A DNA stretch of 64,000 nt, taken from contig NZ_CP036349.1 in assembly GCF_007753265.1 (NCBI RefSeq), positions 1,211,363-1,275,362 on the forward strand, in the 5' to 3' direction. Shown here one piece after another: positions 3,767-36,955 of the stretch. Origin of the DNA: Botrimarina mediterranea. Lineage in GTDB: Bacteria; Planctomycetota; Planctomycetia; Pirellulales; Lacipirellulaceae. The notes under the pieces are model-generated. The model saw only the letters and a list, made by a program, of their open reading frames with translations. It was not told the origin of the DNA and ran no database searches. The translations under genes and the position numbers were made by a program. Positions within the stretch are counted from its first letter, which is position 1. The number at the start of each line of letters is the position of its first letter.

Positions 3767-5521
3767 ATGCCACGCCTTTGGCGAATCGCGACGCACGACC
3801 CGGCCCGGATTGCCGAGCTGCAGCGCTCCGCCGGGCTGCCGCCGGTTGTCGCTCAGCTGCTCGCCGCCCGCGGCATCTTCGATCCCGCCGAGGCGCGGGA
3901 GTTCTTGGAGCCCAAGCTCACCGGCCTGCGTGACCCGGAGCTGCTGCCGGGAGTCAACCGCGCCGCCGACGAGATCGGCCGCGCGATGCGCGACGGCGAG
4001 AAGATCGTCGTCTACGGCGACTACGACGCGGACGGCATGACCTCCGCCGCGATCCTGCTGCGGTGCTTGCGCCTGCTCGGCGCCCAGGCTCGGTTCTATG
4101 TGCCGCACCGCATCGAAGAGGGCTACGGCCTCAACTGCGAGGCGCTCCGCACGCTGGCCCACGAGGGGGTCCGCACCGTCGTCACGGTCGACTGCGGCGT
4201 CGCCAGCCTCACCGAAGCGGCCACCGCGCGCGAGCTCGGCCTGCGCCTCGTCATCACCGACCATCACTTGATGGCCGACCGGCTGCCCGACGCGGCGGCG
4301 ATCGTCCATCCGCAGCTGCCCACCGAGGACGGGGGCCGTTACCCGTTCTTCGGTCTCTGCGGCGCCGCGGTGGCGTTCAAGCTCGCCTGGGCGCTGTGTC
4401 AACGCGCCAGCGACGCCAAACGTGTCAGCGAGCCCATGCGGCGGTTCCTGCTGCAAACCACCGGCCTCGCCGCGATCGGCACCGTCGCCGACGTCGTGCC
4501 GCTGATCGATGAGAACCGCATCCTCGTCCGGCACGGGCTCGCCGCCTTGCGGCACTCGCCGGTCGCCGGCTTCCGGGCGCTCGAAGAAGTCGCGCAGCTG
4601 ACTAAGAAGCCCGAACTGGACGGCGAAGACCTCGGCTTCTCAATCGCCCCGCGGCTCAACGCGGCGGGCCGGCTCGGGCAGGCGGAGCTGGGCGTCGAGC
4701 TGCTGACGACCGACGACCCGGCCCGTGCGGCGGAGCTCGCCAAGTACGTCGATGAGCTGAACGAGACGCGCAAGACGGTCGAACGCTCGGTGCTGCTCGC
4801 CGCGCGCAAGCAGGCGAAGGACCGCTTCTGCCCCGACTCGGACCCAGCCCTGGTGCTCGCCGACCGCGACTGGCACCCGGGCGTCATCGGCATCGTCGCC
4901 GGCAAGCTCGCCGAGCAGTACGGCAAGCCGGTGGTGGTGGCGTCGCTCGACAAGCTCGGCGCGAAGCCGGCGATCGGCTCGGGCCGCAGCGTGCCGGGTT
5001 TTGATTTGGCCGCCGCCTTCGAAGCCGCCGGCGCCCACCTCATCAGCCACGGCGGCCACGCCGCAGCCGCCGGCCTGCGTGTCGACGAACCGCACCTCGA
5101 CGCCTTCCGCGAAGCCTTCTGCGCGCACGCCGCCGAACGCCTCGGCGACAACGGCGCGCTGCTCGAACTAGCGATCGACGCCGAGGCGCCCCTGTCGTCG
5201 CTGACGCACCAGATCGTCACGCAGATCGAACGCCTCGCCCCCTTCGGCCACGGCAACCTGCGGCCGACGCTGTGCGCCACCGGCGTCCGCCTCGCCGGCC
5301 CACCGCGCCGCATGGGCGGCGCGGGGCGTCACTTGTCGGTCGATCTCGAACAAGCGGGCGTCAAACTGCGCGCGGTGGCGTTCGGCGCCGGCGACCGCGA
5401 AGAAGAGCTGTTGAGGCTCGACGGCCCGATCGAGATCGCGTTCCGGCCGGTGATCAATACGTTCCGGGGTTATCGGTCGGTGGAGATGCACCTGGCGGAT
5501 TGGAAAGCGACGCCGCGGTGA
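3767..5521 (+). CDS. recJ: Single-stranded-DNA-specific exonuclease RecJ
   Basis: This is a 584-aa RecJ, the normal length, degrading single-stranded DNA 5' to 3' in recombination and mismatch repair. The DHH phosphoesterase domain shows motif I DYDADG (85-90), VDCG (141-144) and TDHH (164-167), which bind the catalytic metals, and AIGTVADVVPL (~237-246). The DHHA1 domain has DRDWHPGVIGIVAGKLAE (~367-384) and the conserved GGH (429-431). A C-terminal OB-like segment follows. The frame is open from 3701, but the segment before 3767 is the palindromic repeat. The ATG at 3767 is preceded by AGGGA about 7 nt upstream, which decides the start. Confidence 0.95.
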   Translation: MPRLWRIATHDPARIAELQRSAGLPPVVAQLLAARGIFDPAEAREFLEPKLTGLRDPELLPGVNRAADEIGRAMRDGEKIVVYGDYDADGMTSAAILLRCLRLLGAQARFYVPHRIEEGYGLNCEALRTLAHEGVRTVVTVDCGVASLTEAATARELGLRLVITDHHLMADRLPDAAAIVHPQLPTEDGGRYPFFGLCGAAVAFKLAWALCQRASDAKRVSEPMRRFLLQTTGLAAIGTVADVVPLIDENRILVRHGLAALRHSPVAGFRALEEVAQLTKKPELDGEDLGFSIAPRLNAAGRLGQAELGVELLTTDDPARAAELAKYVDELNETRKTVERSVLLAARKQAKDRFCPDSDPALVLADRDWHPGVIGIVAGKLAEQYGKPVVVASLDKLGAKPAIGSGRSVPGFDLAAAFEAAGAHLISHGGHAAAAGLRVDEPHLDAFREAFCAHAAERLGDNGALLELAIDAEAPLSSLTHQIVTQIERLAPFGHGNLRPTLCATGVRLAGPPRRMGGAGRHLSVDLEQAGVKLRAVAFGAGDREEELLRLDGPIEIAFRPVINTFRGYRSVEMHLADWKATPR

Positions 5522-5547
5522 GCGAGCGTTCAGCTTTCAGCGTAGCT

Positions 5548-7302
5548 CTACTTAAGACGCTCTTCGCTGTAATCTGGGTCGGCGTTAAATCTACCGAATC
5601 CCCTTAGCCACTCCTGCTTCTCGAGTTTTGCCTCAGCCTTTGGCCACAAGTCGTTTACTTCGGAGCAAAGGTCAGGAGATAAGTAATTTCTATGACCGTC
5701 AAGCCAGTTCATAACGTGATAAAAATCTTTCCGATCGACGTATTCAACGGACGTGGTAAACTGCCTAAGCTTAGCGATTCGATCGTCTAGGTCCGCTCTC
5801 TTTATACGAGGCGGCAGTTTTGGGAGTATGTCAACCATCCCATCTTCAGACTTTACAATTGCTAACCTGCCCGCTTTCCCATGGACGTATCTAATGGCCG
5901 AGTTGTACCGCGCTCCACGTGATGCCGTGCAGCTTCTGTGGGCCATGCCATCTAGAATGGTTCCGATAGCATAACAGAGTGCGTCCGTGCCAATAATGAG
6001 TGCTCCATCAACTTTGCTTGTCGTGCGTAGGAGCTCTTCTGTTAAGGGGAATGGAGTGACTGGGTAGCCTTGTTGCTCCAGCCTCTCCGCTTCCGAACTC
6101 GCGTCCTCAGCGATTATGAGCAATGCACCATGCCGCTGCTCGTCTAACGCCTTCGATACCGAAACAAGGTGATTGATATGTTGGGCTGGTAAGCTGCCGA
6201 ATACTCTAGAAAGATGATCCCGGAGTAAATCGCTAGGAAAGTCTGTCTTTCTCAGTAATGGATTTCCATGCTCAACGTACATTAGAGTCTTGCTAGCGTG
6301 TTCAAGCTGCCAGCAGAATCTTCGCATGTAGCGGACCAAGAATGCGTTCTCCATCCCTTCGTCGTAGTCGCCGTCTAACCTCCCTATTCCGTACACTTCG
6401 TGACCGTCGCACAGCAAAGAAGTGGTATTGCTCGTAAGCTCAAGCGACTTGCGGACTGCAGTATGGTTGGATAGTGGTATAGAGTTGCAGAACTCGATGT
6501 CAATTTTAATGTGCGGATGCGAAGGGTTCGAATAGATGATCGAACCAAGGCCCTCAGATCCTTCATATAGCAAGGAAGATATGCGATTGTGGATCTCATA
6601 CTGAGTGCGATATGCGTCGAATGCACCACCAGCGATTGTGGTAACATCCATCATCTGCCGCCCGCCTTCCCTGATGATGTCATCTATGTTGCCTGTTATC
6701 CCAAAACCATCTCCCGGGTTTGGGCGTTCTAGTGCATGCAGGCATCGACTTAAGAAAGATTGCAGGCAAGATTCTAGGAGAGACCGCATCACCTTGAATG
6801 GTTGGTCGTCGTCGTGAGGGGCGCGGTCGTTGGTAAGTGAATAATATTGCTTTAGACGCGCCTTGTCGATTTGCGCAATCGTGAATACTTGATAGCCGTC
6901 GATCATTACTGGCCATGACGCATAGGTTGCCCATGTGTTCTCAGGTAACGATTCCAAGGTTGATATGATCGCGGATCGCCAGCCATCAGCTTCAATGCTG
7001 CGAACCAGACCCTCTTGAGCCTTTTCTAAACTGTGCACTCCGTGGATCGATGGGTCGTACTTCCCAAGTCTTCGAGCCAGCTCTGGGATGGGCGCGAGTT
7101 GCTCAGGACGAACGACACAATCGTCTGGAGCAACACATATTGGATGCCTGTTTGGACGGTCGTCAGCCAGAAATCCGACTAAGAATGCCCGGCATTCAAT
7201 ACTGGGGTCGAGTGAGTGGATGAGGCTGCGCAATTCTATTGCGACTGAGACTTGAAAATGCTCTTGATACGGCCACATAAAGTACTCAAGCACGTAAGGC
7301 AC
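5548..7302 (-). CDS. Diadenylate cyclase-like (DisA_N/DAC domain) protein with long N-terminal sensor region
   Basis: 584 aa. Residues ~385-495 resemble the DisA_N diadenylate cyclase domain: RHGALLIIAED (390-400), then VDGALIIG containing the catalytic DGA motif (432-434), then RGARYNSAIRYV (462-473) at the place of the canonical GTRHRA motif, so RHR reads R-Y-N. Known DAC enzymes condense two ATP into c-di-AMP. Divergent DAC proteins carrying DACN-type putative sensor domains have been described from comparative genomics, and this looks like one of them. Residues 1-380 match nothing I recognise and have no signal peptide or clear membrane segment. The gene is distinctly AT-richer than its neighbours, suggesting transfer. 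It converges on recJ (26 bp between stops) and stands alone. The domain call is fairly firm; cyclase activity is not proven. Confidence 0.75.
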   Translation of the reverse strand: MPYVLEYFMWPYQEHFQVSVAIELRSLIHSLDPSIECRAFLVGFLADDRPNRHPICVAPDDCVVRPEQLAPIPELARRLGKYDPSIHGVHSLEKAQEGLVRSIEADGWRSAIISTLESLPENTWATYASWPVMIDGYQVFTIAQIDKARLKQYYSLTNDRAPHDDDQPFKVMRSLLESCLQSFLSRCLHALERPNPGDGFGITGNIDDIIREGGRQMMDVTTIAGGAFDAYRTQYEIHNRISSLLYEGSEGLGSIIYSNPSHPHIKIDIEFCNSIPLSNHTAVRKSLELTSNTTSLLCDGHEVYGIGRLDGDYDEGMENAFLVRYMRRFCWQLEHASKTLMYVEHGNPLLRKTDFPSDLLRDHLSRVFGSLPAQHINHLVSVSKALDEQRHGALLIIAEDASSEAERLEQQGYPVTPFPLTEELLRTTSKVDGALIIGTDALCYAIGTILDGMAHRSCTASRGARYNSAIRYVHGKAGRLAIVKSEDGMVDILPKLPPRIKRADLDDRIAKLRQFTTSVEYVDRKDFYHVMNWLDGHRNYLSPDLCSEVNDLWPKAEAKLEKQEWLRGFGRFNADPDYSEERLK

Positions 7303-7564: not shown

Positions 7565-7758
7565 AGCCCCGGAGGGGCGAAAGCGCGTAGCCAGGGGCGC
7601 GAGCCCCTGGAATGCGGCTGCAATTACGTACGAGCCCCGGAGGGGCGACAGCAGGCTTTTTGGCGACGGCGCCGTCGCCCCTCCGGGGCTTTGTGTATTT
7701 GATCGCGACTCTCCAGGGGCTTGCGCCCCTGGCTACGCGCTGCCGCCCCTCCGGGGCT
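7565..7758. repeat. Large nested palindrome (CCCCGGAGGGG type)
   Basis: About 190 bp of nested inverted repeats. The outer arms are AGCCCCGGAGGGGCG (from 7565) and its complement (ending 7758). Second arms CGCGTAGCCAGGGGC (7584-7598) pair with the complement ending at 7739. Inner arms GAGCCCCGGAGGGGCG (7632-7647) pair with 7676-7690 around a GGCGACGGCGCCGTCGCC centre. Each arm also folds on itself. The whole 7303-7808 interval contains no credible gene. Confidence 0.8.
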
Positions 7759-35701: not shown

Positions 35702-36955
35702 TTACCTACCAGCGCCCGGCAACTCCAGCGTCGGCGCCGGAAGCCGCACCACAACATCATCGGGCCCGTTGGGCTTGGGGCGCTCGCCGGTCCAATCGAT
35801 CGGCGCGTACTCGCCATCGACGAACTCGCCCGATTGATCGCTGCCGCCGTCATCGACGCCGTTGCGGCCGAGGCTCCAGATCGCAAAACCCTCGTCGCGC
35901 CGCTCGTAGACAAACGGCTCGTTGGTGAACGGGTCGAGCGGGATCTCGGCGAGTGGATCGGGCGCGAGGGCGTCGAGCGCGTCGGGGTACTCGCCGTGGC
36001 GGAGTTGATGGAGCTTGAGGGCAGCGGCGAGGAGGGTGAGGCGTTGCCTCGCGATAGTCGAATCGGCAGCGTCAAAGACAGCTCCCGCGTCCGGGAAAAG
36101 ATTCGCTACAAAAATCGCGCCTACGACTTCTCCGTTAGCGATCGCTGGTGCGTGACCTTCTTGCAATGACTTCGCTTTCAAAGCTGCATGATCGATTCTT
36201 CTGAGATCTTCTACGAAATTTGAATATGCCACTCTTCGCGCAACCGAATCCGGAATGGATGCAATTTCTTTGAGCCTATTCCAGTAGCTTACAGTTACTC
36301 TCAGTGTTTGGTTTGCGTCGAAGAAGCCTTCCAACCACAGTTCATGCACGTCTCCACGGCGATGCATGTCTCCTTCAGGTCGAAGCTTACCCGGCGTCGG
36401 TCGCTCAGAAAACTCTCGTACGACTGTGTCTAGCATCAAGAGAGTTTCGTCGAGAGTGAATTGCGGCGCCCACATGACAGGGCGGTCAGCTCTAGCTTGT
36501 AGCATTGCCACCACTTTGGAAGCATCTTTACCATCGGTAGCATCCTGAAACGTTAGTAGCTCTAGCCGATCTGCAGCTTGCAGGTATCGGAATCCCTCAA
36601 GCGTCGAAATAGCGGAAAAGTCATCGAGCGAGAATTCTGCTAATTTGCGGATGCTCTCTACATTGGCGTTAGCGGTTCCTACAACAGTCTCGTGACATGC
36701 GGCCTCAACAGTTAAACACATGACGGCGCGCCGCATCGCAAGAACGCCACAGAGGTTGGTATTCAGCAGTGGATGAGGCGGCTTGCTGAGTAAGCTTGGT
36801 GAGGGGTTGTAGTAGCGATCGCACTTCACAACGGATCGGAGTAGGTTTAAGCCTGCTTGGTTGGCCTCCAGCCATTCCGAGAGTTCCGGGAAAATCGCTT
36901 CCTCTCCAAGGCCGGGAACCAAAGACTTGTCCCGCCCGAGCATCACTGAGTGCAC
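35702..36955 (-). CDS. Hypothetical protein, C-terminal part of a frameshifted lipoprotein
   Basis: 417 aa in the annotated frame from the ATG at 36955, but in-frame homologous-looking sequence continues upstream without a stop (PSSLCPHLDRWATVHSVML), and the overlapping frame at 36705-37343 supplies the missing start. The protein is mainly helical. Its C-terminal ~110 residues resemble the globular part of type II pseudopilins as found in planctomycete hypothetical proteins: ALKLHQLRHGEYPDALDALAP, then PLDPFTNEPFVYERRDEGFAIWSLG. The role is unknown. The region is AT-richer than its surroundings. If the frameshift is genuine, the gene is disrupted. Confidence 0.6.
   Translation of the reverse strand: MHSVMLGRDKSLVPGLGEEAIFPELSEWLEANQAGLNLLRSVVKCDRYYNPSPSLLSKPPHPLLNTNLCGVLAMRRAVMCLTVEAACHETVVGTANANVESIRKLAEFSLDDFSAISTLEGFRYLQAADRLELLTFQDATDGKDASKVVAMLQARADRPVMWAPQFTLDETLLMLDTVVREFSERPTPGKLRPEGDMHRRGDVHELWLEGFFDANQTLRVTVSYWNRLKEIASIPDSVARRVAYSNFVEDLRRIDHAALKAKSLQEGHAPAIANGEVVGAIFVANLFPDAGAVFDAADSTIARQRLTLLAAALKLHQLRHGEYPDALDALAPDPLAEIPLDPFTNEPFVYERRDEGFAIWSLGRNGVDDGGSDQSGEFVDGEYAPIDWTGERPKPNGPDDVVVRLPAPTLELPGAGR

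Follow-up and report, generated by a model that had tools for sequence, protein, structure and literature searches.

The gene and its predicted domains

The gene lies on the minus strand of a 64,000-nucleotide stretch of the Botrimarina mediterranea genome (the window). It runs from a GTG start at 7302 to a stop at 5548-5550 and forms one complete open reading frame of 584 codons, which fills the coordinates 5548..7302 given in the preliminary description; the plus strand in the same frame contains many stops. An in-frame TAA stands two codons before the GTG, with a GAGAG stretch ahead of it. The 584-residue product carries three domains in the order DACNG, DACNH and DAC, all on the minus strand and each above its Pfam cut-off of 27 bits. 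DACNG (PF21752), a probable sensor, covers residues 9-218 (6649..7278; E 1.3e-45, 156.4 bits), DACNH (PF21750) covers residues 235-336 (6295..6600; E 1.1e-26, 93.2 bits), and the DAC, or cyclase, domain (PF02457, DisA_N) covers residues 384-492 (5827..6153; E 5.8e-10, 39.2 bits).

These profile searches, which the preliminary description had proposed, overturn its statement that the first ~380 residues match nothing. Since this region matches DACNG and DACNH, the supposedly unknown N-terminus is a named pair of probable sensor domains, and the proposal of a sensor-type N-terminus agrees with Pfam's own label for the domains found there. The DAC-like C-terminus that it recognized is real, with a DGA motif at residues 432-434 (6001..6009), yet the DAC is not terminal: about 86 residues follow, and a C-terminal extension (residues 499-584, 5551..5808), predicted to be mostly helical, is absent in some relatives (Dyadobacter, Priestia, Hymenobacter). 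Where canonical DACs have G-x-RHR, the protein has an RGARYNSA block at residues 462-469 (5896..5919). The NCBIfam model NF053872 (DS2_3_antiphage) aligns to residues 6-579 (E 1.2e-153) at 512.5 bits, below its equivalog cut-off of 630. A PADLOC scan of the protein matched no model, and PDB sequence searches gave no match with either the 584-residue protein or the full family alignment; DACNH alone gave a single match at E 0.57.

Structure prediction supports the domain assignments to different degrees. The full-length AlphaFold2 model, built from 46 sequences, reaches a pLDDT of 89.6 and a pTM of 0.78. Its residues 367-496 resemble solved DACs, with a Foldseek E value of 1.4e-6 to DisA, and VIA-align superposes the DAC domain on a solved DAC at Z 11.5 (2.6 Å over 114 residues, 22% identity), so the fold comparison called for earlier comes out in favor of a DAC. 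For residues 1-345, folded alone so that DACNG and DACNH are modelled together (pLDDT 93.3, pTM 0.91), the same kind of check, suggested for residues 1-380, yields less: Foldseek returns nothing at E 0.001. VIA-align places DACNH (226-345) closest to DacM (7dfx) at Z 8.4 (3.4 Å over 113 residues, 6% identity), a value near the best Z of 7 to 8 that is typical of models with no clear match. Residues 182-344 align to 2fb5 at Z 8.3, and all 19 matches over DACNH among those listed are DACs. DACNG weakly resembles ligand-binding folds of the GAF, IclR and LuxR types in the predicted model; these make up most of its matches listed, beside a few unrelated folds, with Z at most 5.7.

The predicted models suggest that DACNH is possibly a degenerate DAC fold: compared by eye, its order of helices and strands parallels that of the DAC minus the RHR-bearing helix. 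Sequence profiles give this no support. In hhalign, the DACNH score is equalled by 125 of 200 column shuffles in the comparison with the family's DAC and by 11 of 200 in that with canonical DACs, and so does not rise above shuffling; the CD-NTase (18.2) and patatin (15.7) controls outscore DACNH (11.5 and 15.0). A second DACNH-DAC profile comparison gives E 0.12 in another register. An internal duplication of DACNH and DAC was not significant at the sequence level.

The RYN block of the DAC domain

Relatives were collected by a contig scan of genomes, which found 373 in total, and by tblastn, which found seven on plasmids; the phage records searched contained none, and a contig scan with a single protein gave 25 stretches that matched the pattern, none of which encoded a relative. 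The alignment of 89 sequences comprises the query, the best 80 of the 373 contig-scan relatives, the seven plasmid copies and one copy from E. coli. It leans to the query's side and to Hymenobacter and Solirubrum (26 rows). L006 and L143, each from a record of 81,157 bases, probably represent a single plasmid.

Six residues, D432, G433, R465, N467, S485 and D487, are identical in 89/89 members of this best-80-based set. At position 466, which corresponds to the RHR histidine, 76 of them carry Y, 10 carry F, 3 carry L and none carries H; the counts at position 434 are 68 A, 10 T, 8 S, 2 G and 1 C. The comparison set of canonical domains consists of 24 DACs, 23 from 21 other genomes and one from B. 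mediterranea, and leaves out the fragment L173 and the DACNG-DACNH-DAC family's own matches. In it, the middle position of RHR is H in 24/24, while the next position is R in only 16/24. The family's DAC profile aligns RGaRyns to GTRHRA of the solved protein 2fb5, a CdaS homologue (PMC8573169), with E 9.8e-5. Because N is invariant and H absent in all 89 aligned members, and H is present in all 24 canonical domains, the RYN change is old and fixed within the examined set, where it is a family signature. The R-Y-N replacement had thus been read correctly, but it is no peculiarity of one protein.

Like the canonical DisA, CdaA, CdaS and DacZ proteins (PF02457), the query has the DAC fold and the DGA motif. 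The family differs from them in having Y, F or L for the RHR histidine followed by the invariant N, in an extra invariant ILDG and R462, and in its N-terminal domains. DGA and RHR are described as required for ligand binding, and two DACs must come together head to head (PMC8573169). Replacement of RHR by AAA leaves Mycobacterium tuberculosis DisA inactive and unable to bind ATP (PMC3328451), and for this reason the missing histidine and second arginine could mean either inactivity or another chemistry. B. mediterranea also encodes a separate cyclase of the DacZ type (DacZ_P plus DAC), which has the DAC domain in common with the query but differs in its RHW motif and its other sensor domain.

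Genomic setting, relatives and CBASS linkage

The gene differs in composition from its surroundings, as the preliminary description had noted. Its GC content is 49.9% against 64.5% for the window, and its GC3 is 0.523 against 0.839 ± 0.075 for 25 chosen window ORFs. DACNG occurs in B. mediterranea alone among 59 close relatives (itself included); across the phylum, 14 genomes out of 392 have DACNH, B. mediterranea among them. The low GC3 and this patchy distribution make it likely that the gene was acquired, as proposed at the outset. One other ORF of low GC3 (0.60) lies at 35702-36955 on the minus strand of the window; it has a weak match to T2SS protein G and no NCBIfam match.

Synteny with a genome of the same genus (G001, 91% RecJ identity) ends at the recJ stop codon, at 5521-5548 of the window. 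The far-side DNA in G001 maps to distant places in the B. mediterranea genome, so that no empty site can be defined. At the break, G001 (locus L121) has an ORF that resembles a REP-associated transposase. Directly upstream of the DAC gene, at 7566-7689 of the window, stand three copies of the palindromic repeat GCCCCGGAGGGGCGA. With 39 copies genome-wide, many of them clustered in twos or threes, against 0 for the backward pattern, this is a REP-like dispersed element.

Two neighbors were considered as partners and rejected. RecJ, next door, contains DHH/DHHA1 domains, as do c-di-AMP phosphodiesterases; it was set aside because its gene is convergent with the DAC gene and present in 12/12 genomes searched (own included). 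A K+ channel with a TrkA_C (RCK_C) domain lies 4.4 kb from the DAC gene and has some match in 12/12 genomes (own included), several of them weak. It was considered as a c-di-AMP target, but it is no specific partner: three genomes without DACNG (G001, G003 and G007) have close orthologues of it, 75-81% identical, at places distant from recJ.

In line with the earlier description, the search for a partner gene found none. Profiles for CD-NTase, SMODS, DncV, Cap15 and patatin match 0 of the 354 window ORFs of at least 60 residues at E 1, and all ten neighbors scanned with PADLOC are without a match. A pair of genes for a patatin and a DncV-like CD-NTase does occur 1.1 Mb away in the same genome, around 2318514, and looks like an ordinary CBASS. 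Its CD-NTase has 504 residues, is DncV-like with AGS_C, and matches NF041078 (cGAS) below the cut-off.

Among the closest known systems is one from E. coli. Citrobacter and Gluconobacter copies of the family adjoin genes for a patatin-like phospholipase and a CD-NTase, and the three-gene stretch of Citrobacter, whose CD-NTase has 297 residues and SMODS alone, has counterparts of 80-90% identity in E. coli, where 18 genomes out of 5,426 contain it. Six of the 18 E. coli matches listed bear the gene names 'anti-phage phospholipase', 'anti-phage nucleotidyltransferase' and 'anti-phage protein'. In our view this stretch corresponds to DS-2, a CBASS-linked system that the DefensePredictor paper (PMC13092281) describes as a phospholipase, a cGAS and a DAC. 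According to that paper, mutating either of two predicted catalytic DAC residues eliminates defense, and 15 of 30 DAC homologues adjoined a CBASS, an association that it credits to Galperin 2023 ('All DACs in a row'). The description of such proteins as hardly studied is therefore no longer fully true, as phage-defense tests on the third DS-2 gene of E. coli have included catalytic mutants. Our literature search found nothing on DACNG and nothing pertinent on DACNH, and the portion of PMC12072042 consulted contains nothing on the DACNG-DACNH-DAC family.

The query and the third DS-2 gene of E. coli share the DACNG-DACNH order, an alignment over the whole length, the DAC region and the RYN block. 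They differ in that the E. coli copy has DGT where the query has DGA, and follows phospholipase and CD-NTase genes, for neither of which the 354 window ORFs offer the query a match. DAC identity to the query is 45.7% for E. coli DS-2 and 44.9, 44.9 and 42.5% for the planctomycete relatives L011, L012 and L033, and DACNG identity is 19.7% for E. coli and 20.2 to 34.3% for the same three. This pattern suggests a conserved DAC output with a changing sensor, as would be expected for a common output under varying signals. NF053872 scores the E. coli protein at 818.8, the unlinked Flavobacterium copy L018 at 684.2, and the nearest relatives at 567.8 (L011) and 597.7 (L012); since the unlinked L018 passes, the cut-off fails to tell linked and unlinked copies apart. 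The E. coli DS-2-type DAC (L091, 9931-11676) is unreported by PF02457 at E 0.001, and Pfam-based surveys may consequently miss such proteins. In two Methanosarcinaceae copies, an ORF of 163 residues that they have in common lies just upstream of the DAC gene (L022, 7434-7925; L025, 1948-2439). That of L022 has no Pfam match, and the ORF is a possible partner in this branch.

Linkage to CBASS was scored with the CD-NTase, SMODS, DncV, Cap15 and patatin profiles, which were seeded from loci of the same set and checked by Pfam for representatives. Among the 89 loci, which include the best 80 of the 373 relatives, 19 are CBASS-linked and 70 have no CBASS gene nearby. The unlinked loci comprise 60 whose flanks reach 5 kb or more on each side, to which Hymenobacter or Solirubrum contribute 26, and 10 with a shorter flank. 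CBASS-linked loci carry patatin or Cap15 as effectors and the same DAC family as the query, in whose window neither a CD-NTase nor an effector is matched. Nine DAC-containing CBASS loci (L014, L017, L043, L049, L051, L057, L060, L069 and L086) have Cap15 with no patatin match nearby, and L086 has a probable fusion, a single ORF of 362 residues to which both the CD-NTase and the Cap15 profile align.

In a quick, midpoint-rooted tree, which has long branches and includes 30 compositionally unusual rows, the query groups with one Pirellulales and two Gemmataceae copies (support 99), which suggests movement within the phylum. Of the 18 copies labelled CBASS for the tree, 14 fall into one group, to which this branch does not belong (L061 was recognized later). 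Elsewhere in the phylum, 14 DACNH stretches in 13 genomes, a set that leaves out a sub-cut-off second DACNH match of G209 (L127), have no CBASS genes nearby, several of them with short flanks.

A search for SMODS, which overlooks divergent CD-NTases (L051 has one), is positive for 12 of the 36 genomes that carry unlinked copies and for 0/3 genomes of L011, L012 and L033; a need for CBASS in trans is therefore not general. By our own sorting of matches, a canonical DAC is also present in 21 of 27 genomes with a family member: in 18/20 with unlinked copies and 3/7 with CBASS-linked ones. The four CBASS-linked genomes without a canonical DAC are all Pseudomonadota, which confounds the comparison with taxonomy.

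Candidate functions and meaning

The preferred reading, to which we assign a probability of about 0.55, is that this standalone DACNG-DACNH-DAC protein, a DS2_3-like family member, is a soluble, sensor-gated nucleotidyl cyclase that acts in trans. DACNG, possibly with DACNH, would receive a signal, perhaps phage infection or another stress. The RYN-type DAC, in which D432, G433 and R465 are kept and the RHR histidine is not, would then link two nucleotides to form a cyclic dinucleotide; the likeliest product would be c-di-AMP or a close analogue. As no effector was found beside the gene, the product would act in trans and would target either c-di-AMP receptors that the host itself has or the effector of a CBASS encoded elsewhere in the genome. 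By analogy with the E. coli relative, an anti-phage role is plausible. Because unlinked copies mostly occur with a canonical DAC and without a detected SMODS, a stand-alone cyclase or self-contained defense is favored over a displaced part of a CBASS.

Several other explanations deserve weight. A doubtful but possible one is that the protein makes no messenger and that its RYN DAC serves as a receptor or switch, by binding either a nucleotide or a cyclic dinucleotide. The histidine that all 24 canonical domains keep is lost throughout the 89 aligned members (best 80 of 373 included), the AAA replacement kills DisA (PMC3328451), and the DS-2 DAC goes unreported by PF02457 at E 0.001; against this stand the invariance of D432 and the G-x-R core across the same 89 sequences and the loss of defense in DS-2 catalytic mutants (PMC13092281), although a loss of binding would look alike. 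Regulation of ordinary physiology by c-di-AMP, such as osmotic or K+ control, overlaps with the preferred reading and seems rather unlikely as an alternative to defense. Unlinked copies do form tight groups with neighbors in common in Hymenobacter and Pedobacter, 18/20 hosts of unlinked copies have another DAC, and the K+ channel lies 4.4 kb off, but that channel is no specific partner, and the gene is compositionally foreign and rare in its lineage (DACNG in 1/59 genomes).

We also consider, as a speculative and unlikely variant, that the protein is an unrecognized kind of cyclase. A degenerate-DAC DACNH and the RYN DAC would form an internal pseudo-dimer in place of two identical DACs meeting head to head, gated by DACNG and yielding an altered product, asymmetric or non-adenine and not c-di-AMP. 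If this were true, the standalone copy would be a self-contained signaling or defense switch. It is improbable that the gene works in trans with the patatin and DncV-like CD-NTase of its own genome as a split DS-2. DS-2 does combine a phospholipase, a cGAS-like cyclase and a DAC (PMC13092281), and genes of both other kinds lie 1.1 Mb away; however, the genome's own CD-NTase, at 504 residues with AGS_C, differs from the 297-residue, SMODS-only enzyme of Citrobacter, the query's branch is not CBASS-linked, and SMODS goes undetected in 24 of 36 genomes with unlinked copies. Decay of an acquired gene is least credible: foreign composition and isolation would fit it, but the frame is fully open and keeps the residues common to the other 88 aligned members (best 80 of 373 included).

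Overall, the observation in the preliminary description is partly confirmed and its interpretation partly supported, and the soluble, sensor-gated cyclase remains the reading that we prefer. The query extends a known, partly tested family and does not reveal a new one. Its invariant R-[Y/F/L]-N and the possibly DAC-like fold of DACNH raise two testable questions, one about the nucleotide product and one about pairing of domains within the chain, and the RYN signature and this possible fold are the parts worth bench work. In the literature searched, a role of DACs in phage defense rests on one tested system, DS-2. Because the architecture is widespread with no CBASS genes nearby (70 of 89 loci), archaeal and planctomycete copies included, the DAC may have an independent function.
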